Source: Anaeromusa acidaminophila DSM 3853 (GTDB lineage: Bacteria; Bacillota; Negativicutes; Anaeromusales; Anaeromusaceae). From it: a stretch of DNA of 41,249 nt. Below the pieces are notes generated by a model. It was given only the letters and a program-made list of their open reading frames with translations. It was not told the DNA's origin and searched no databases. A program made the position numbers and the translations under genes. The stretch lies in the NCBI RefSeq assembly GCF_000374545.1, contig NZ_KB894609.1:1-41249 (forward strand). Direction: 5' to 3'. Within the stretch, counting starts at the first letter, position 1, and every line of letters begins with the position of its first letter. Shown piece by piece: positions 1-39,036 of the stretch.

Positions 1-187
1 TAGGGTGATCCGGTTTGTTATTCCATTGCCTCCTTGAAGCTTTTATTCTGGGTGGCAAATCTCTTTCTGCTATCCAGTTATATAATGCCTTCCTTGTTGG
101 AAACCCCAAGCACTGAATAACTTTAGTCACGGATTTGCATTGGTCATACAGTGTTAGCGCTCGTTTTTTCTGGCCTTCTGAATACAT
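1..187 (-). CDS. IS3-family transposase OrfA, N-terminal part (cut by window edge)
   Basis: Reading the minus strand from the ATG at 187-185 gives 62 uninterrupted codons to the window edge. The protein begins MYSEGQKKRALTLYDQC and continues with a helix-turn-helix stretch containing GFPTRKALYNWI. This is the usual start of IS3-group OrfA proteins, the DNA-binding half of the transposase that is normally joined to OrfB by programmed -1 frameshifting. A ribosome site (AAAGGGG) lies 9 bases before the ATG. The remaining OrfA residues and the frameshift window are outside the sequence. The identification rests on the N-terminal pattern and on its place just inside the element's end. Confidence 0.85.
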   Translation of the reverse strand, partial: MYSEGQKKRALTLYDQCKSVTKVIQCLGFPTRKALYNWIAERDLPPRIKASRRQWNNKPDHP

Positions 188-236
188 TTTTCTTGCCCCT
201 TTCAGAATGCCACCCGAGTCCAACTTTTTGTCCGCA
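1..236 (-). mobile_element. IS3-family insertion sequence, OrfA-side end (partial)
   Basis: This is the transposase-5' end of an IS3-family element that runs off the left edge. The terminal inverted repeat is read on the minus strand as TGCGGACAAAAAGTTGGAC at 236-218. It resembles TGACCCCAATAAGTTAGAC at 40956-40974, the other kind of end of a similar element (12 of 19 positions agree by eye, clustered in the inner part). OrfA starts just inside the repeat. Directly outside it the sequence becomes an HD-GYP gene already in mid-domain, so insertion or later deletion broke that gene. The exact outer base is uncertain by a few positions because no target duplication can be seen from one end. Confidence 0.8.
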
Positions 237-518
237 TCCCCAGGCCACCATGAAAAGTGGGACGGCAGCGGCTATCCGGATGGCTTGGTTGGCGAGTCGA
301 TTCCCTTATCCGCTCGCTTGATGGCGCTGGCGGATGTGTATGACGCCTTAATCAGTCGGCGGGTATATAAGGACCCGTATCCCCATGCTACGGCGGTGCG
401 CATGATCGAGGCCGAATCAGGAACGCATTTTGATCCGGTGGTGGTGGAAGCCTTCTTGGCCTCGGAAGAGCGTTTCTTGGAAATCGCCGAAGCGATGCGG
501 GATATAAAACTAGACTAA
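237..518 (+). pseudogene. HD-GYP domain protein, 3' remnant truncated by the IS element
   Basis: From about 243 the plus frame encodes the second half of an HD-GYP cyclic di-GMP phosphodiesterase: HHEKWDGSGYPDG (the HHExxDGxGYP signature), then IPLSARLMALADVYDAL, then RRVYKDPYPHATAVRMI and a normal C-terminus ending at 518. The upstream part of the domain, including the first metal-binding HD residues, is missing. The frame continues upstream only as IS sequence, with no recognisable protein and no ribosome site. I therefore call it a disrupted gene rather than a short real one. Intact HD-GYP proteins hydrolyse cyclic di-GMP, so its loss removes one arm of the signalling network seen elsewhere in the window. 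Confidence 0.85.
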
Positions 519-539: not shown

Positions 540-689
540 TTTGTCGAAACAAGAAGATTCTCGACTCAAAAAAAGACGACTTGCAGGGAAATACGGAAAC
601 TCGTTGTGCTCAAACAACCGTATTTCTACTCCTGCAAGTCGTCGCTTTTTTGTCCTGCGGACCGTCTCGCCTCTAAAAGTTTCGCCAAG
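540..689. repeat. Structured repeat element, copy A (nested stems, conserved loop)
   Basis: Nested inverted repeats fill this space. The outer stem is 540-550 with 679-689 (six perfect pairs, one mismatch, four more). A middle stem, GACGACTTGCAGG at 575-587, pairs with 631-643. An inner stem, GAAATACGG at 588-596, pairs with 618-626. The apical loop is AACTCGTTGTGCTCAAACAA (598-617). A T-run at 645-650 and GTCCTGCGGACCG at 652-664 follow. The same loop and tail, with entirely different but still complementary stems, recur at 23345-23499. The A-run before and T-run after the middle stem (568-650) would also end transcription in both directions between the converging HD-GYP remnant and helicase gene. 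Confidence 0.75.
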
Positions 690-771: not shown

Positions 772-3700
772 TTACAAGAACAGTTCGCGCAGTTCTGCTT
801 CGCTTAACTTGCCCAGGAAATTTTCGCCCGGCTGAATAACGGAGTCGATCATTTCCTTTTTGCGTTCCTGTAGGGCGTAAATTTTTTCTTCGATGGTGTT
901 TTTGGCGATAAGCTTATATACTTGGACGGATTGCTTCTGGCCGATGCGGTAGGCTCGGTCGGTGGCCTGGTCCTCAACGGCCGGGTTCCACCAGGGATCA
1001 TAATGAATGACCATGTCCGCGCCGGTGAGATTGAGACCGGTGCCACCGGCTTTTAAGGAGATGAGGAAAACCGATTTTTCACCGCCGTTGAAGGCGTTCA
1101 CCAGCCGCAGGCGTTCTTGGGCGGGGGTGGCGCCGTCCAGGTAGAAGCAGTCGATACCTTCCTTGGCCAGATGCTGGCGGATAAGATCCAGCATGCCTGT
1201 GAACTGGGAGAAGAGCAGCACCCGGTGGCCGCCGTCCAGGGCGTCTTGGAGCAGCTCGTGCAAGAGATCCAGCTTGCCGCTGCCGCCGCGATAATCGTCA
1301 AGAAAGAGAGCCGGATGGCAGCAAAGCTGGCGCAGGCGCGTGAGGAGCGCCAGAATTTTGATGCGGCTTTGCTCAAAGCCCTGTGCGGTAAGCTCTTCTT
1401 GCATTTCCTGGCGGGCTTTAGCCAGCCAGGCGGCGTAGACCTTGCTTTGGCGCGGCGTCATTTCAGCGCTCATCTTGCTTTCTACTTTCGGAGGCAGCTC
1501 CTTGAGTACTTCTTTTTTCAAGCGACGCAGCAAGAACGGACGGATGTGGCGGCTTAGGTTTTGCAGCGCCTCTTGATCCTGGTCTTTGACGATGGGGGTT
1601 TCAAAGTGATCCTGGAAGAATTTATGGCTCCGCAAGTAGCCGGGTAAAATGAAATCAAAGACGGACCACAGTTCGGTGAGAGAATTTTCCACCGGCGTCC
1701 CGGTGAGGGCAAAGCGCACTTGGGCGGGAATGTCTTTTGCCGCCTGCGCCGCCTGGGTGCCGGGGTTTTTGATATGCTGCGCTTCGTCGAGAATGGCGCA
1801 ATAAAAGTTGAGTTCCTGGTAATTTTCGATGTCCCGGCGCAGTACGCCGTAAGACGTGATGAAAAGATCCGTATCTTCTAGGTCTTGCAGCGCCTCTTGA
1901 CGGCTGCTTTGTTGGCCGGCAAGGACGCGCACGCGCAGGTCCGGCGTGAAGCGAGAGGCTTCCTCCAGCCAGTTATAGACAAGAGACGTAGGCGCAACGA
2001 CCAGAGACGGTCTTGTTTCGCCTTGTTCCTTGGCGTATTGCAAGAACGTCAGCATTTGCAGCGTTTTCCCGAGTCCCATGTCGTCCGCCAGAATGCCGCC
2101 TAATTGATGCTGCGCCAGGGCGGTTAGCCAGCGGTAGCCTGTTTCCTGGTATTCACGCAGTTGGGCGTTGAGCTGCTGCGGCAATTCGCATTCGCTTTCT
2201 TCAGGGCGGCGGATATCCCGTACTAACTGGCGGAAGCTCTTTTCCCGTTCGACATGCAGAGATTGGCTTTCACGAGCGAGTAAATCCAGGTATAGCGCGC
2301 GGTAACGGGGCAGCGTTAAATTGTCTTGCGCTAGTTCTTGTTTGCTCAGTCCCAAGCTGTCTACCATCGCCAGCATCTCCTCGGCAGCGCCTTCGAGTTT
2401 TAGAAAAGCGCCGTCTTTGAGACGGTGGTACTGCTTTTTTTGTCGGTACGAAGCTAGAATATCCCAGAGTTCCTTGCGGTCCAGTCCTTCGTGCTCTAAC
2501 GACAGCTCTACCAAGCCGGTGCTGCTTAATCGAACACCGGCGCTGGCGCTCATCGGGCGTATCTTGAGGCGCAGATCATCAGCGCCGAAGACTTCGGCTT
2601 GTTGCTGCAAGGCGGCTAGGCCTTCGTCGGCAAAATGAAAAAGCGCGTCCGGGTGCTCTAGCTGCCAAAACAGGCCGCTTTCCCGAAAGCCTGCCTGGGA
2701 AAGCGCTTGACGTACGGCGCTTTCCGCTGCTTCATCCCGCAGCCAGATGGCTCCGGTCTCATCCCGACGCGTCGGAGCGCCTTCTTCCAGGAGCTGCCCG
2801 GCGTAGCGGCATTCCAGCCGCGCCGCCAGGCCGGAGCCGTAGCGATCAAGATAGATCTTGGCCTCCAGCGGCTCCCGGCGAAAGCGCTGCTGCAGCGTTG
2901 CCGCCACTTGCACCGAACCAGCCGCTTCCAGTTTAGGCATCATGGCGCTGAAAAGAGGCTCTGATTCTTCCAAGGGGATGCGGAGTTCTCGGACTTTATG
3001 TCCTTGAAAATGTTCTAACAGCGGCGTCCAGGCCAGGCGAAAGTCTTCGGGAACGGCGTAAATGCTGCCGCCGCAGTAAAGATGGCTGCCGTTACCGGTC
3101 AGAAGTTCCCAGGAGGCTTCCGGAGCGTCCAGGCGTACGCTGACGCCTCCCGGAATATCGTCTAAAACAGTGGTGAGAGGAGGCTTGCCTGCAAGGACGG
3201 GCGCCGCGTCGTATTCCTTGTCGTTTAAAAGCAGCCGGATAGGAACGTGGTGCTGCTGGGCCCATTGCCAAAATTGACGCTGTTGGGCGCTGTCCAGGGA
3301 GAAGCCTCGTTTATTGTGGAACGAAGAGAGCGTATCGTTGGCGGTGAAAAAGCTGCCGCTCCAAGCGCGGCGTTCGCGCTCGCTCTGATAGGCCTCGCGA
3401 ATCAGCGTGAACAGCTGCCCCGAAATACTGTCAAAGCGCATTGTGCCCGGGGTGAAAGTGAAATTTTTGCCGAACGGATGGGGCTGGCCCCAACAGAAAT
3501 GCTCCAAAAAGGCAGGTAAGTCTTTCAAGACGTACAGACGGCCTACGCCAATGCTCAGCTCCAGCCAAGTTTGGGAGAGGACGCCGCTTTGGCGGCGGCA
3601 GTAAGTAACCGCTAGCTGTACTTCCTGGCTGCCTTTAGTCGTTGCTGCTGTTTGGGCCTGGGGGCGATAATGGGCCAAAAGGGCCGCTTCGGCAGGAGTC

Positions 3701-4038
3701 AGATTGGGGCTGTGTTGGCTTGCCGCGTCTTCGCCGTCAGGAAGAGAGAGCGCTTCGCGGTGTTGGATGGCTTTAAGAACGGCGACGATGTGCTTGCAGG
3801 CGCTATAGCCGTCATAGGCGGGGCAGTTGCATTGGTAATGGAGCATACGCGTGTCGCCCCATGCTTCAACCTTATAAGAGCGGGTGCCTCGGACAACCGC
3901 ATAATAGCGCTGCTGGGCTGCGTCAAAGCGCAGTCTATCTACGCGGCCTTGGCGGTGATAGGTACAGCCGCGTTGGTAAGCGCTTTCCCAAGAGGCTTCT
4001 TGGGAAATGGCTTCGTCGGTTAAATGGAGATTTAGCAT
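772..4038 (-). CDS. SWIM zinc-finger SNF2/Rad54-type helicase
   Basis: This 1088-residue ATP-dependent DNA translocase has an N-terminal SWIM zinc finger (C70-x-C72, C81-x-H83) and a C-terminal SNF2 motor. In the motor the Walker A motif DDMGLGKT sits near residue 650, motif II is DEAQ near 750, then comes LTGTPVENSLTELWS, and the helicase C-domain carries GGTGLNLTGAD and the arginine-finger motif DRAYRIGQ near 1030. The long middle region (about 130-600) matches no family I can name but is usual in bacterial SWIM-SNF2 proteins. The start at 4038 follows GAGGAT with good spacing. Bacterial members are thought to remodel protein-DNA complexes or act around stalled transcription or repair; the exact role here is unknown. 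The gene stands alone, and its 3' side meets the structured element at 540-689. Confidence 0.93.
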   Translation of the reverse strand: MLNLHLTDEAISQEASWESAYQRGCTYHRQGRVDRLRFDAAQQRYYAVVRGTRSYKVEAWGDTRMLHYQCNCPAYDGYSACKHIVAVLKAIQHREALSLPDGEDAASQHSPNLTPAEAALLAHYRPQAQTAATTKGSQEVQLAVTYCRRQSGVLSQTWLELSIGVGRLYVLKDLPAFLEHFCWGQPHPFGKNFTFTPGTMRFDSISGQLFTLIREAYQSERERRAWSGSFFTANDTLSSFHNKRGFSLDSAQQRQFWQWAQQHHVPIRLLLNDKEYDAAPVLAGKPPLTTVLDDIPGGVSVRLDAPEASWELLTGNGSHLYCGGSIYAVPEDFRLAWTPLLEHFQGHKVRELRIPLEESEPLFSAMMPKLEAAGSVQVAATLQQRFRREPLEAKIYLDRYGSGLAARLECRYAGQLLEEGAPTRRDETGAIWLRDEAAESAVRQALSQAGFRESGLFWQLEHPDALFHFADEGLAALQQQAEVFGADDLRLKIRPMSASAGVRLSSTGLVELSLEHEGLDRKELWDILASYRQKKQYHRLKDGAFLKLEGAAEEMLAMVDSLGLSKQELAQDNLTLPRYRALYLDLLARESQSLHVEREKSFRQLVRDIRRPEESECELPQQLNAQLREYQETGYRWLTALAQHQLGGILADDMGLGKTLQMLTFLQYAKEQGETRPSLVVAPTSLVYNWLEEASRFTPDLRVRVLAGQQSSRQEALQDLEDTDLFITSYGVLRRDIENYQELNFYCAILDEAQHIKNPGTQAAQAAKDIPAQVRFALTGTPVENSLTELWSVFDFILPGYLRSHKFFQDHFETPIVKDQDQEALQNLSRHIRPFLLRRLKKEVLKELPPKVESKMSAEMTPRQSKVYAAWLAKARQEMQEELTAQGFEQSRIKILALLTRLRQLCCHPALFLDDYRGGSGKLDLLHELLQDALDGGHRVLLFSQFTGMLDLIRQHLAKEGIDCFYLDGATPAQERLRLVNAFNGGEKSVFLISLKAGGTGLNLTGADMVIHYDPWWNPAVEDQATDRAYRIGQKQSVQVYKLIAKNTIEEKIYALQERKKEMIDSVIQPGENFLGKLSEAELRELFL

Positions 4039-22318: not shown

Positions 22319-22458
22319 TATATCGTGACTTGCGCGGATTAAACTTAGAATGATAAATCGATGTTCGCGCTTTTCACGGTGAATAATAAATTTGAGGGAC
22401 GTTGCTAACGAATCGCGAAATACACGAAAGACGCGAACGGGTTTTATAATCTGCTCCA

Positions 22459-22590
22459 CTTCTGCTCATCGAACCCACCCGCTACTCCCACTATTTCTGT
22501 TGAAATTTATCATTTTCCATAACCCTCGTTCGTACCCTCTCGTGACTCTGATTTTCCTGTTCAATTTCCGATTTTCTTTGTTTTTTCTGT
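22459..22590. repeat. Pyrimidine-rich intergenic repeat, copy 3
   Basis: It contains CCACCCGCTACTCCCACT, then CGTACCCTCTCGTGACTC and TGATTTTCCTGTTC. It is preceded at about 22404-22440 by a tract (GAATCGCGAAATACACGAAA and on) of the kind seen as dispersed repeats in many genomes. It lies immediately upstream of the DsbA-like gene. Confidence 0.6.
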
Positions 22591-22619: not shown

Positions 22620-23198
22620 ATGCGTCGATCGTTGCGAGTAGTTTTTGACTTTGCTTGTCCTTACTGCTATTTGCTTTGGGGTTACGTGCAGGAGTTGCGA
22701 CGAACTGCGCCGGTACAACTCGAATGGCTGCCTTGGGAAATCAATCCGGATCTGACGTTAGCGGGAAAAGTGCTGCAGCCGGGAGCGTCAGGGGTATCAC
22801 AGCCGGATCAATTAGGCGCGTCCCTGGGCTTGGTTCCGTCCGCCAGGACCGTGTTGTCTAATACGCACCAGGCGCTGGCGGCGTTGGAATTTGCCAAAGA
22901 CCACGGCCAAGGCGACGCTTGGCTAGATGCCGTTTTTCCAGCTCATTTTGTCGACGGCCAGGATATCGGCCAACTGCCGGTGCTGCTGCAACTGGCGCAG
23001 GAGATTGGTTTTGATGTGCAGGAGTTGGAGGCGGCGCTGCAGGCGGGGCGCTATGACCAGCGCTTGCTGGATAACGAGGCCTATTGCCAGGAGCATCAGA
23101 TTGAATGGGTTCCTACGGTGCTTTGGGGGCAGGAAAAGCTGCTGGAAGGCGTTATTTCCTTCAGCGTGTTTAAAGACACATTAAAAACATTGTTTTAG
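22620..23198 (+). CDS. DsbA-family thioredoxin-fold oxidoreductase (FrnE/HCCA isomerase-like)
   Basis: This 192-residue protein starts directly with a thioredoxin-fold strand, then the CxxC site FDFACPYCYLLW (C13, C16), an inserted helical domain (about 60-150), and WVPTVLWG with a likely cis-proline. This arrangement matches the DSBA-like branch that includes FrnE and 2-hydroxychromene-2-carboxylate isomerase. There is no signal peptide, so it works in the cytoplasm, perhaps as a disulfide isomerase or in glutathione-independent redox chemistry. The start at 22620 has AAAGGAGG eight bases upstream. The in-frame extension back to 22392 runs through repeat DNA and is rejected. A terminator hairpin follows at 23266. 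Confidence 0.87.
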   Translation: MRRSLRVVFDFACPYCYLLWGYVQELRRTAPVQLEWLPWEINPDLTLAGKVLQPGASGVSQPDQLGASLGLVPSARTVLSNTHQALAALEFAKDHGQGDAWLDAVFPAHFVDGQDIGQLPVLLQLAQEIGFDVQELEAALQAGRYDQRLLDNEAYCQEHQIEWVPTVLWGQEKLLEGVISFSVFKDTLKTLF

Positions 23199-23344: not shown

Positions 23345-23499
23345 TTGTATTTGAGACAAGATTTGCGCGCGCCTCGAAAAAGCAGGTTAAGGCGGCAGTT
23401 TCTTAACTCGTTGCGCTCAAACAAGCGAAACTTTGATGCGCCTTAGCCTGTTTTTTCGTCCTGCGGACCGGCTTACTCCAATAAAAGTCTCAAATACAA
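23345..23499. repeat. Structured repeat element, copy B (nested stems, conserved loop)
   Basis: The outer stem TTGTATTTGAGAC (23345-23357) is perfectly complementary to GTCTCAAATACAA (23487-23499). The middle stem CAGGTTAAGGCG (23383-23394) pairs with CGCCTTAGCCTG (23439-23450), with one G-T pair. The inner stem AGTTTC (23397-23402) pairs with GAAACT. The loop AACTCGTTGCGCTCAAACAA (23405-23424) differs from copy A at one base. After the T-run comes GTCCTGCGGACCG (23458-23470), identical to copy A. The stems share no sequence with those of copy A. The surrounding 541-base space between the DsbA-like and ABC-F genes holds this element, a terminator and a pyrimidine-rich repeat, and no gene. Confidence 0.8.
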
Positions 23500-23505
23500 T
23501 GACCG

Positions 23506-23660
23506 CTGCCTTCGAAACCTTCCCGCTACTCCCTGTACTCCGGTTAAAACCCGTGCCCTGTTCTTCTCTTGCGTACCCTCCCGTGACTCTGATTCTCTTG
23601 TTTCATCTTCATCGCGCCCTCCATCTACTCACTCTACTCCTGTTAAAATTCTCGTTTCTT
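23506..23660. repeat. Pyrimidine-rich intergenic repeat, copy 4
   Basis: It contains CCCGCTACTCCCTGTACTCC, then TTGCGTACCCTCCCGTGACT and CTGATTCTCTTGTTTC, then CTACTCACTCTACTCCTG and a stretch GTTAAAATTCTCGTTTC. It is the longest copy, with the phrase apparently doubled. It lies upstream of the ABC-F gene. Confidence 0.6.
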
Positions 23661-23739: not shown

Positions 23740-25638
23740 ATGCATATCCTTTCCATAGAAAATATGAGCAAACAATACGGCGAGCGTACTCTTTTCGAGG
23801 ACGTGACCTTCGGAATTGGCGATACGGACCGCTTGGGTCTGATCGGCGTTAACGGCACCGGCAAGACTACGTTTTTAAAAGTGATAGCTGGCCTGGAGCC
23901 GCCGGACGAAGGGAAAATCAGCCGAGCCGGCAGCGTGCAGGTGGAGTATCTGTCACAGGACCCGGAGTATGATCAGGAAGGCACGGTACTGCAAGAAGTC
24001 TTTCGCGGCGCTTCGCCTATTTTGCAGGTGCTGCGGGAATACGAGGCGGCCTTAGGCGCTGCAGCCGCTTGCCCCGGTGATGAGGCGCTGCAGGCGCAGG
24101 TAGTGCGTCTAGGCCAGAAAATGGACGAGCAGAATACCTGGCCATTGGAAAGCGAAGCTAAGACTATTTTAACCAAGCTAGGCATTGATGATTTTAGCGC
24201 GCAGATGAAAAATTTATCCGGCGGCCAGCGCAAGCGCGTGGCTTTGGCCGGAGCGCTCATCAATCCGGCGCAACTCTTGATTTTGGATGAGCCTACCAAC
24301 CATATCGATCATGAAACCGTGGCTTGGCTGGAGCAAACCCTGGCTCGCCGCAACGGGGCGCTGCTGGTCATCAGCCATGATCGGTATTTTTTAGACCGTG
24401 TTACTACCGGTATTTTGGAGCTGGATCGGGGACGGCTTTTCCGCTACGAGGGCAATTACAGCCTCTTTTTAGAGCAGAAGGCCGCGCGGGAAGAGCGCGA
24501 AGAAGCCAGCGAACGCAAGCGCCAAAACCTGCTGCGTCAGGAGTTGGCCTGGATGATGCGCGGCGCGAGAGCGCGCAGCACCAAGCAAAAAGCGCGTATC
24601 GAGCGTTTCGAGACGCTGTCGGCGCAGCAAGCCCTGGGCAAGGCGGCGGCCCTGGATATGTCCGTAGGCTCCAGCCGCTTGGGCAAGACCGTCATTGAAG
24701 TAGAAAATCTGAGCCATGATTTTGGCGAAGGCTGCGTTTTGAAAAACTTCAGCTACATCGTCAAGCGAAATGACCGCATTGGCATTGTCGGCGCTAACGG
24801 CAGCGGCAAATCGACGCTGCTAAACCTGATCGCTGGTCACTTGGAGCCGCAGGCGGGGAGCGTCAAGGTGGGACAGACCGTTAAAATCGGCTATTTTGCT
24901 CAGGAAAACATCGACATGGACCCGCGCCTGCGGGTCATCGAATACATTCGCGAAGAGGCCAACTTTATTGCAACCTTGGACGGCGGCGTTATCAGCGCCG
25001 CGCAAATGTTGGAGCGCTTTCTATTTCCGCCGCATCTCCAGGGCGTGTCCGTAGCCAAGCTGTCCGGCGGCGAGCGCCGCCGCCTTTACTTGCTGCGGGT
25101 GCTGATGAGCGCCCCGAATGTACTGCTCTTGGACGAACCGACCAATGATTTGGATACGCTCACCTTGGCGGTGCTGGAGGATTATCTGGACACTTTTCCG
25201 GGCGCCGTGTTGACGGTATCCCATGATCGCTACTTTCTTGATCGCGTAGCGGACCATATTTTCGCGTTTGAAGCAGGCGGTTCCATTGGCCGTTATCCTG
25301 GCGGCTACAGCGATTATCTGGAAGCTCGCGCCCCTCAAGGCGAGATGGAGAAAGCATCCGGCTCAAAAGAAAGCGATAAGACCGACGAGCGCAATCAAAA
25401 CCGCGCGCCCCGTATGGGCTTCAAGGAAAAACGCGAATTTGATGAAATTGAAGGGGTTATTGCCGCTGCTGAAGGCGAGCTTCGCGCTGTTCGCGCCCAA
25501 CTGGCCCAAGGAGGCAGTGATTTTTCTCTGTTGCAGGAGCTGACGGAGCGTGAAAAGCAGCTGCTGGCGAGGTTGGAAGAACTTATGGAGCGTTGGGCTT
25601 ACTTGAGTGAACTGGCGGAAGCCAGTGAGAGCCGCTAA
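23740..25638 (+). CDS. uup: ABC-F family ATPase (Uup-like), ribosome-associated
   Basis: This 632-residue protein has two ABC ATPase domains in one chain and no membrane segments. Domain 1 has GVNGTGKTT near residue 36, LSGGQRKRVALAGAL near 160 and LLILDEPTNHID. Domain 2 has GANGSGKST near 350, LSGGERRRLYLLR and LLLDEPTNDLD. The inter-domain linker (about 240-290, KRQNLLRQELAWMMRGARAR) is rich in Arg and contacts tRNA and rRNA in this family. A C-terminal coiled coil (about 560-632) is the Uup-type DNA/RNA-binding extension. ABC-F proteins act on the ribosomal E site to relieve stalls; some protect against antibiotics, but nothing here points to resistance. The start follows GAGGGA. No terminator is obvious downstream. 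Confidence 0.93.
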   Translation: MHILSIENMSKQYGERTLFEDVTFGIGDTDRLGLIGVNGTGKTTFLKVIAGLEPPDEGKISRAGSVQVEYLSQDPEYDQEGTVLQEVFRGASPILQVLREYEAALGAAAACPGDEALQAQVVRLGQKMDEQNTWPLESEAKTILTKLGIDDFSAQMKNLSGGQRKRVALAGALINPAQLLILDEPTNHIDHETVAWLEQTLARRNGALLVISHDRYFLDRVTTGILELDRGRLFRYEGNYSLFLEQKAAREEREEASERKRQNLLRQELAWMMRGARARSTKQKARIERFETLSAQQALGKAAALDMSVGSSRLGKTVIEVENLSHDFGEGCVLKNFSYIVKRNDRIGIVGANGSGKSTLLNLIAGHLEPQAGSVKVGQTVKIGYFAQENIDMDPRLRVIEYIREEANFIATLDGGVISAAQMLERFLFPPHLQGVSVAKLSGGERRRLYLLRVLMSAPNVLLLDEPTNDLDTLTLAVLEDYLDTFPGAVLTVSHDRYFLDRVADHIFAFEAGGSIGRYPGGYSDYLEARAPQGEMEKASGSKESDKTDERNQNRAPRMGFKEKREFDEIEGVIAAAEGELRAVRAQLAQGGSDFSLLQELTEREKQLLARLEELMERWAYLSELAEASESR

Positions 25639-36977: not shown

Positions 36978-37068
36978 CAACTAGCTAGTTGGCGGCGCGG
37001 CGATCATAGGCGGTTAGCCCTTAGACCCGTAGCTTTGCGTCCCTATTTTTCAATAGGTTTGCCCTACA
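36978..37068 (-). promoter_or_regulatory. Cyclic di-GMP class I riboswitch (GEMM-I)
   Basis: The minus strand reads GTAGGGCAAACC, a short GAAA-capped hairpin (CCTATTGAAAAATAGG), GGACGCAAAGCTACGGGTCT, then AAGGGC and the second hairpin ending near GCGCCGCC. GGGCAAACC, GACGCAAAGC and CGGGTCTAA are the conserved core of GEMM-I aptamers, which bind cyclic di-GMP between the two helices. A promoter lies just upstream and a terminator just downstream. The ligand therefore decides read-through into the 4-helix-bundle chemoreceptor gene. Ends are approximate. Confidence 0.93.
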
Positions 37069-37087
37069 TTATGATATTGTGATATTT

Positions 37088-38736: not shown

Positions 38737-38939
38737 TCGACGCCCCCGTATAGTGAACAATATAGGAAGAAAACTGCGTAAAATGCTTTCTGCAGGGGTT
38801 TGCAAAAATCCTTTAAAAAAGCGGTATTCAGTGAAAATGAGTAAAAATATGAACAATTTAAAAAATAAAAAATTGCCGATGAACACAGGCTATGATAAAC
38901 TTATAAAAGAATACTGCATCGACTAAGTATAGTAAAAAG

Positions 38940-39036
38940 AAAAAAGCAAACTCGCTGAAAAACGAGGACGCAAAGCCACGGGTCTAATGGCAGAGCCTAT
39001 GATCGTCGGGCTGCCGCTTTATAGAGGAGCGTTTGC
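38940..39036 (+). promoter_or_regulatory. Cyclic di-GMP class I riboswitch (GEMM-I)
   Basis: The plus strand reads AAGCAAACTCG, a hairpin capped by CTGAAAAA, then CGAGGACGCAAAGCCACGGG, TCTAATGGCAG and a second hairpin ending CTGCCG. The strings GCAAAC, GACGCAAAGCC and CGGGTCTAA match the GEMM-I core and the sister element at 36978-37068. A terminator follows at 39041. GTTTGCC at 39031-39037 can pair with GCAAAC at the 5' end, a likely part of the switching stem. It controls the chemoreceptor at 39149. Confidence 0.95.

Follow-up and report, generated by a model that had tools for sequence, protein, structure and literature searches.

The window, a stretch of 41,249 nucleotides from Anaeromusa acidaminophila DSM 3853, carries two copies of a structured intergenic element, referred to here as copies A and B (Table 1). 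Copy A lies between two convergent open reading frames (135–518, plus strand, and 772–4038, minus strand). Copy B follows a plus-strand gene that ends at 23198, is preceded by a separate terminator, and lies upstream of a further plus-strand gene that begins at 23740. The initial annotation had placed both copies beside gene 3′ ends, which is correct for copy A and, for copy B, applies to the upstream neighbor only, as the other neighbor starts downstream. The same annotation had described a common loop held by stems that are unrelated in sequence and yet paired, and both parts of this description were borne out. The pattern AACTCGTTG[T/C]GCTCAAACAA matches the window at 598–617 and 23405–23424, where shuffled sequences predict 0.02 matches, and P1, P2, and P3 differ in sequence between the copies and are paired in each, including the 13 outer pairs previously counted in copy B. 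Fold z-scores were −7.3 (copy A) and −5.6 (copy B) as RNA, and −7.8 and −4.7, respectively, as DNA. In both copies, P2 is flanked by A-runs and T-runs.

Table 1. Structural features of copies A and B in the window.
Feature	Position	Strand	Basis or pairing
Copy A core (subfamily 3)	540–689	+	sequence, alignment, fold
Copy A outer stem P1, 5′ arm	541–550	+	pairs with 679–688, one mismatch; P1 covaries
Copy A outer stem P1, 3′ arm	679–688	+	
Copy A P2, 5′ arm, GACGACTTGCAGG	575–587	+	13 pairs with 631–643
Copy A P2, 3′ arm	631–643	+	
Copy A P3, 5′ arm, GAAATACGG	588–596	+	9 pairs with 618–626
Copy A P3, 3′ arm	618–626	+	
Copy A conserved bulge	627–630	+	
Copy A conserved terminal loop, AACTCGTTGTGCTCAAACAA	598–617	+	loop search
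Copy A 3′ mini-hairpin (tail), GTCC-TGC-GGAC	652–662	+	
Copy B core (subfamily 1)	23345–23499	+	sequence, alignment, fold
Copy B outer stem P1, 5′ arm	23345–23357	+	13 pairs with 23487–23499
Copy B outer stem P1, 3′ arm	23487–23499	+	
Copy B P2, 5′ arm	23376–23395	+	pairs with 23438–23457
Copy B P2, 3′ arm	23438–23457	+	
Copy B P3, 5′ arm	23396–23402	+	pairs with 23427–23433
Copy B P3, 3′ arm	23427–23433	+	
Copy B conserved terminal loop, AACTCGTTGCGCTCAAACAA	23405–23424	+	loop search
Copy B 3′ mini-hairpin (tail), GTCC-TGC-GGAC	23458–23468	+	

Searching for the loop with up to three mismatches returned 17 places in the genome to which the window belongs. The whole architecture is present at 16 of these, and the 17th place, which lacks it, resembles a chance match. 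The further copies stay paired in their stems, so neither a scarcity of copies nor a loss of complementarity, each of which would have spoken against the initial annotation, was found. Alignment of these copies separates three subfamilies that differ in stem sequence and have in common ACAAGA, the loop, the bulge, CCTGCGGA, and AAAAGT. The resulting consensus is a long interrupted hairpin with an AACTC-GC[TNC]GC-TCARACA loop, the conserved bulge, and a CC[TNC]GG mini-hairpin. Across the genus we counted 13–34 loop matches per genome and compared 98 distinct copies from four genomes (that of the window and those of three sister species). Copies in the genus stand singly, and the repeat unit there reaches ~280 bp. 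At several contig ends, 5S rRNA genes are followed directly by members of subfamily 2 or by relatives of copy A. With its many copies, the element is a dispersed repeat, not a single gene for an RNA of ~150 nt.

RNAalifold analysis of 16 copies yielded 29 pairs, 20 of which showed two-sided changes. We then scored a fixed structure in 51 copies of subfamily 1 from four sister genomes, using a single subfamily to avoid doubtful alignment between subfamilies. Pairing was present in 91.6% of cells, and two-sided change was seen in 19 of 52 pairs, a value reached by none of 500 shuffles and compared with 7–11 pairs in controls with slid partners. The two-pair mini-hairpin within the loop, GC[TNC]GC, also covaries, with A...T replacing G...C in five copies and a T-G wobble in eight. 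Reading the complement strand as forming a GNA triloop (C[GNA]G in each motif) is not adopted, given that T occupies C8 in 29 of the 98 genus copies and that the T-G wobbles favor the sense strand. Compensated differences also separate orthologous copies at the same site, such as an A-T to C-G change near the base of P2 between L221 and both L368 and L372, which suggests that some copies were kept after insertion or were gene-converted. Judged from the alignments, the covarying stems point to selection on a folded single strand, which may be either RNA or single-stranded DNA. Double compensatory changes between paralogs, some between orthologs, and retention of the loop across phyla thus support the proposal of selection for a single-stranded structure whose loop is sequence-specific.

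At the level of the class, Negativicutes, 26 of 60 genomes had at least one loop match; single matches are at the level of controls, and we therefore counted only the 12 genomes with at least five. Match numbers within this one class range from 0 to 34 per genome, with up to 12–32 in genera other than that of the window. Beyond the class, the 19-base loop sits in unrelated but complementary stems in Proteobacteria, Bacteroidetes, Clostridia, Fusobacteria, Nitrospirae, and others. Among the matches listed, the exact loop occurs in Variovorax, Ralstonia, Haemophilus, Marinobacter, Stenotrophomonas, Flavobacterium, Parabacteroides, Fusobacterium, Clostridium, Selenomonas, Nitrospirales, Desulfobacter-like lineages, and candidate phyla; records from metagenome-assembled genomes may be misbinned, and many of the named matches come from isolates. 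The 20 bases on the 5′ side of the loop, compared between 123 distinct loci, were 29% identical, which equals background similarity. Six or more contiguous pairs form a stem directly adjoining the loop in 75% of loci; swapping arms between loci lowered this to 1.9%. This contiguous-pair test was used in place of duplex energies, which owing to base composition are a poor test for stems.

The 12 genomes reached through cross-phylum loci hold 3 to 69 copies each, the maximum being found in one Clostridium (G062), and many genomes carry 10–69. Outside the class of the window, copies are often paired tail to tail, as is the case for many copies in Parabacteroides, Variovorax, Haemophilus, and Marinobacter, where the partners are 175–260 bases apart. 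In several other genera and in other phyla, the element includes an additional hairpin at its 5′ side, with an A-rich stretch after it, and the loops of some of these hairpins are complementary to downstream bases (e.g. CTTGAT with ATCAAG), likely forming a pseudoknot. In Variovorax and relatives, spurious open reading frames across copies (L129 140–446 and similar) form a false recurrent protein family.

No credible match to Rfam 15 was obtained for any copy tested at gathering or relaxed thresholds; such a match would also have spoken against the initial annotation. The loop, tail, and 5′-hairpin sequences, together with surveys of REP and stem-loop repeats, led to nothing relevant in the open-access literature. 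The initial remark that no named element with this loop was known thus stands with respect to Rfam and open-access text, and the family is apparently undescribed. Skipping-rope RNA (RF02924) is a long hairpin conserved at its ends; the element is likewise a long hairpin, but the RF02924 covariance model gave no match in the genome of the window at E ≤10 and none in loci from several phyla. BLAST searches of plasmids and phages with whole copies returned no real match. As for a mobilizing gene, Y1 transposase (PF01797) was rejected as a candidate, since G001 (33 matches) and G041 (12) lack it and element-free genomes have it in abundance, as was reverse transcriptase (RVT_1), which is absent from the copy-rich genomes G013 (17 matches), G041 (12), and G071 (29). 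A search for recurrent neighbors found no gene family, integrases included, shared beside copies.

The orientation of the copies was evaluated against replication. G002, which consists of one contig, changes the sign of its GC skew near 0.64–0.72 Mb and 2.2–2.3 Mb, and the loop strand is on the leading-strand sequence in all 26 of its mapped copies, as it is in 35 of 35 copies on the large contig of G001. The combined 61 of 61 includes orthologs and hence represents fewer independent events, and the switch points were set between skew samples. The window itself has a positive skew (0.123), with copies A and B both on the plus strand. Because flanking genes in the genus occur in either orientation, and 17 copies run antisense to the gene on each side, this lock follows replication and not transcription. 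With the loop strand on the leading-strand sequence, the same strand is therefore the lagging-strand template and is exposed as single-stranded DNA. The bias has the opposite sign in G007 (25 of 32 copies), and Clostridium G062 uses both strands about equally (36 and 33); the orientation lock is a property of lineages, not of the whole family. Of 21 copies in G007, 11 are antisense to both neighbors and 14 have an antisense terminator just past their 3′ end. These antisense intrinsic terminators, seen at L234–L253, lie ~11–16 bases past the screened 3′ edge, and many are near-identical (TGCCGCATTAAAATGCGACAG).

Sites of the element differ between closely related genomes. The intergenic region orthologous to that of copy B is without the element in three sister species, and further sites are empty in sisters despite nearly identical flanks, one of them holding a 3′ remnant only. 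Two other copies occupy sites where sister species keep ~1.3 kb of coding sequence. At L206 (G001) and L363 (G003), the element is found where sisters have an MFS transporter-like gene, or a MerR-like regulator and an amidohydrolase-like gene; these are cases of gene loss at element sites. The sister sites compared gave no cleanly empty counterpart with a target duplication, their intergenic regions being rearranged.

Together, we consider it about evenly balanced (probability ~0.5) that the element is a non-autonomous, replication-coupled mobile repeat of the single-strand-hairpin type, resembling REP and BIME sequences in behavior without being a REP by membership. A putative trans-acting protein would read the loop and the unpaired motifs, as suggested by stems that are free to vary and by conserved parts that are either unpaired or located at the tips of loops. 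The source of new copies would be the single-stranded DNA that the lagging-strand template exposes, as in IS200/IS605-type and REP elements, and the stems would drift in sequence provided that pairing is kept. The likeness to the single-stranded DNA transposition of IS200/IS605 and REP elements is drawn from the replication-locked orientation, the inverted pairs, and the turnover of sites. Several findings count against a mobile repeat: the searches yielded neither a mobilizing gene nor a gene family recurrent beside copies, no cleanly empty site bearing a target duplication was seen, the orientation lock is not universal (G007, G062), and the compensatory changes between orthologs suggest upkeep or gene conversion for some copies.

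REPs are palindromes of 20–50 nt with a GTAG or similar tetranucleotide tag, and BIMEs consist of two inverted REPs (PMC8266576). Like REPs, BIMEs, and REPINs with their TnpA_REP (RAYT) transposase, the element is intergenic, palindromic, present in many copies and, in several phyla, in inverted pairs, and would be recognized as folded single-stranded DNA. The tail-to-tail pairs of the four genera outside the class of the window recall BIMEs, in contrast to the single copies in its own genus. Membership among REPs fails, however, because the element has no constant GTAG beside its stem, has the wrong size (a core of ~150 bp in a unit of 150–280 bp), and occurs in two copy-rich genomes, G001 and G041, without any Y1 transposase; it further differs in having a 19-base loop common to many phyla, with few to tens of copies per genome. 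IS200/IS605 elements and their derivatives are similarly hairpin-based, and their orientation recapitulates the direction of replication (PMC5371812). The element has this orientation trait throughout the mapped copies of its genus, reversed for the majority in G007 and without a lock in G062; it differs in its larger composite hairpin and in that no tnpA or tnpB was seen inside or recurrently beside copies. Integron attC sites are folded on one strand, with stems that vary yet pair and unpaired positions that are conserved. The element resembles attC sites in these features, whereas its copies are dispersed, its conserved part is the terminal loop, and its neighbors show no integrase association.

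The main rival, which we regard as rather unlikely, is a conserved trans-acting or 3′-UTR RNA family. In such a family, transcripts of the sense strand would be bound at their UNC-type loops by a conserved protein or RNA, and the many copies would jointly affect transcript stability or processing. Changes in the loop keep T-G wobbles on the sense strand where the complement would have A-C mismatches, ~62 of the 90 copies with a scored upstream gene sit behind a gene of the same sense, some copies come just after 5S rRNA, and the compensatory changes between orthologs are likewise consistent with such a family. It is opposed by the copies antisense to both neighbors in the genus and in G007, by the antisense terminators just past G007 copies, and by a strict replication orientation that would be unexpected for an RNA gene. 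Less probable still is a host element of chromosome architecture or replication, a polar site that a fork or nucleoid protein would read, duplicated to new places and retained because it benefits the host. This idea agrees with the invariable orientation of copies with respect to the fork in two sister genomes and with structural upkeep at orthologous sites, but not with match numbers running from none to 34 within one class, the many sites that differ even between sister species, or the flipped bias in G007. A family of bidirectional intrinsic terminators (A-run, hairpin, T-run) with drifted stems would account for the runs around P2 in copies A and B, but is very improbable given that cross-phylum conservation of a 19-base loop has no role in termination, that a T-run right after the stem is missing from subfamily 2 and from Variovorax copies, and that copy B already has a separate terminator before it. 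Equally improbable is a cDNA-type retro-repeat copied via its RNA by reverse transcriptase, which would fit the folded RNA-like architecture and replication-linked orientation but not the three copy-rich genomes devoid of RVT_1.

Extending the mobile-repeat reading, it is possible, somewhat short of probable, that the copies belong to a pan-bacterial class of single-strand-hairpin mobile repeats with one nearly universal 19-base loop, moved at replication forks by a putative enzyme that is neither a Y1 transposase nor a reverse transcriptase. A loop that is near-constant from Haemophilus to Flavobacterium to Clostridium inside unrelated stems implies a widely conserved, unnamed reader. If this reader were identified, a large part of the bacterial tree would gain a new mobile-element or nucleic-acid-binding system, and much of the repeated intergenic DNA in public genomes, along with some spurious hypothetical proteins, would be accounted for.

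The loop also turns up in other settings. In L257, L280, and ~40 other viral contigs, the 19-base loop has no stem and falls within an open reading frame of ~350 codons; a chance match that became fixed in a single gene family is the probable cause. In L269, L295, L297, L302, and L311 (contigs of ~9–14 kb), it is followed by a constant 3′ sequence (CTGGCGCACTTCG...), with differing 5′ flanks and no stem. Within the window, another genus-wide intergenic repeat (CGCGAAATACACGAAAGACGCGAA) at 22364–22450 recurs in sister genomes and often adjoins the element, and degenerate C/T-rich repeats at 22480–22560 and 23535–23660 (CCCTCCCGTGACTC, CTACTCCTGTTAAAA) follow many copies and occur also without the element. 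Two c-di-GMP-I riboswitch aptamers lie ~2 kb apart on opposite strands, at 38935–39018 (plus) and 36988–37073 (minus).
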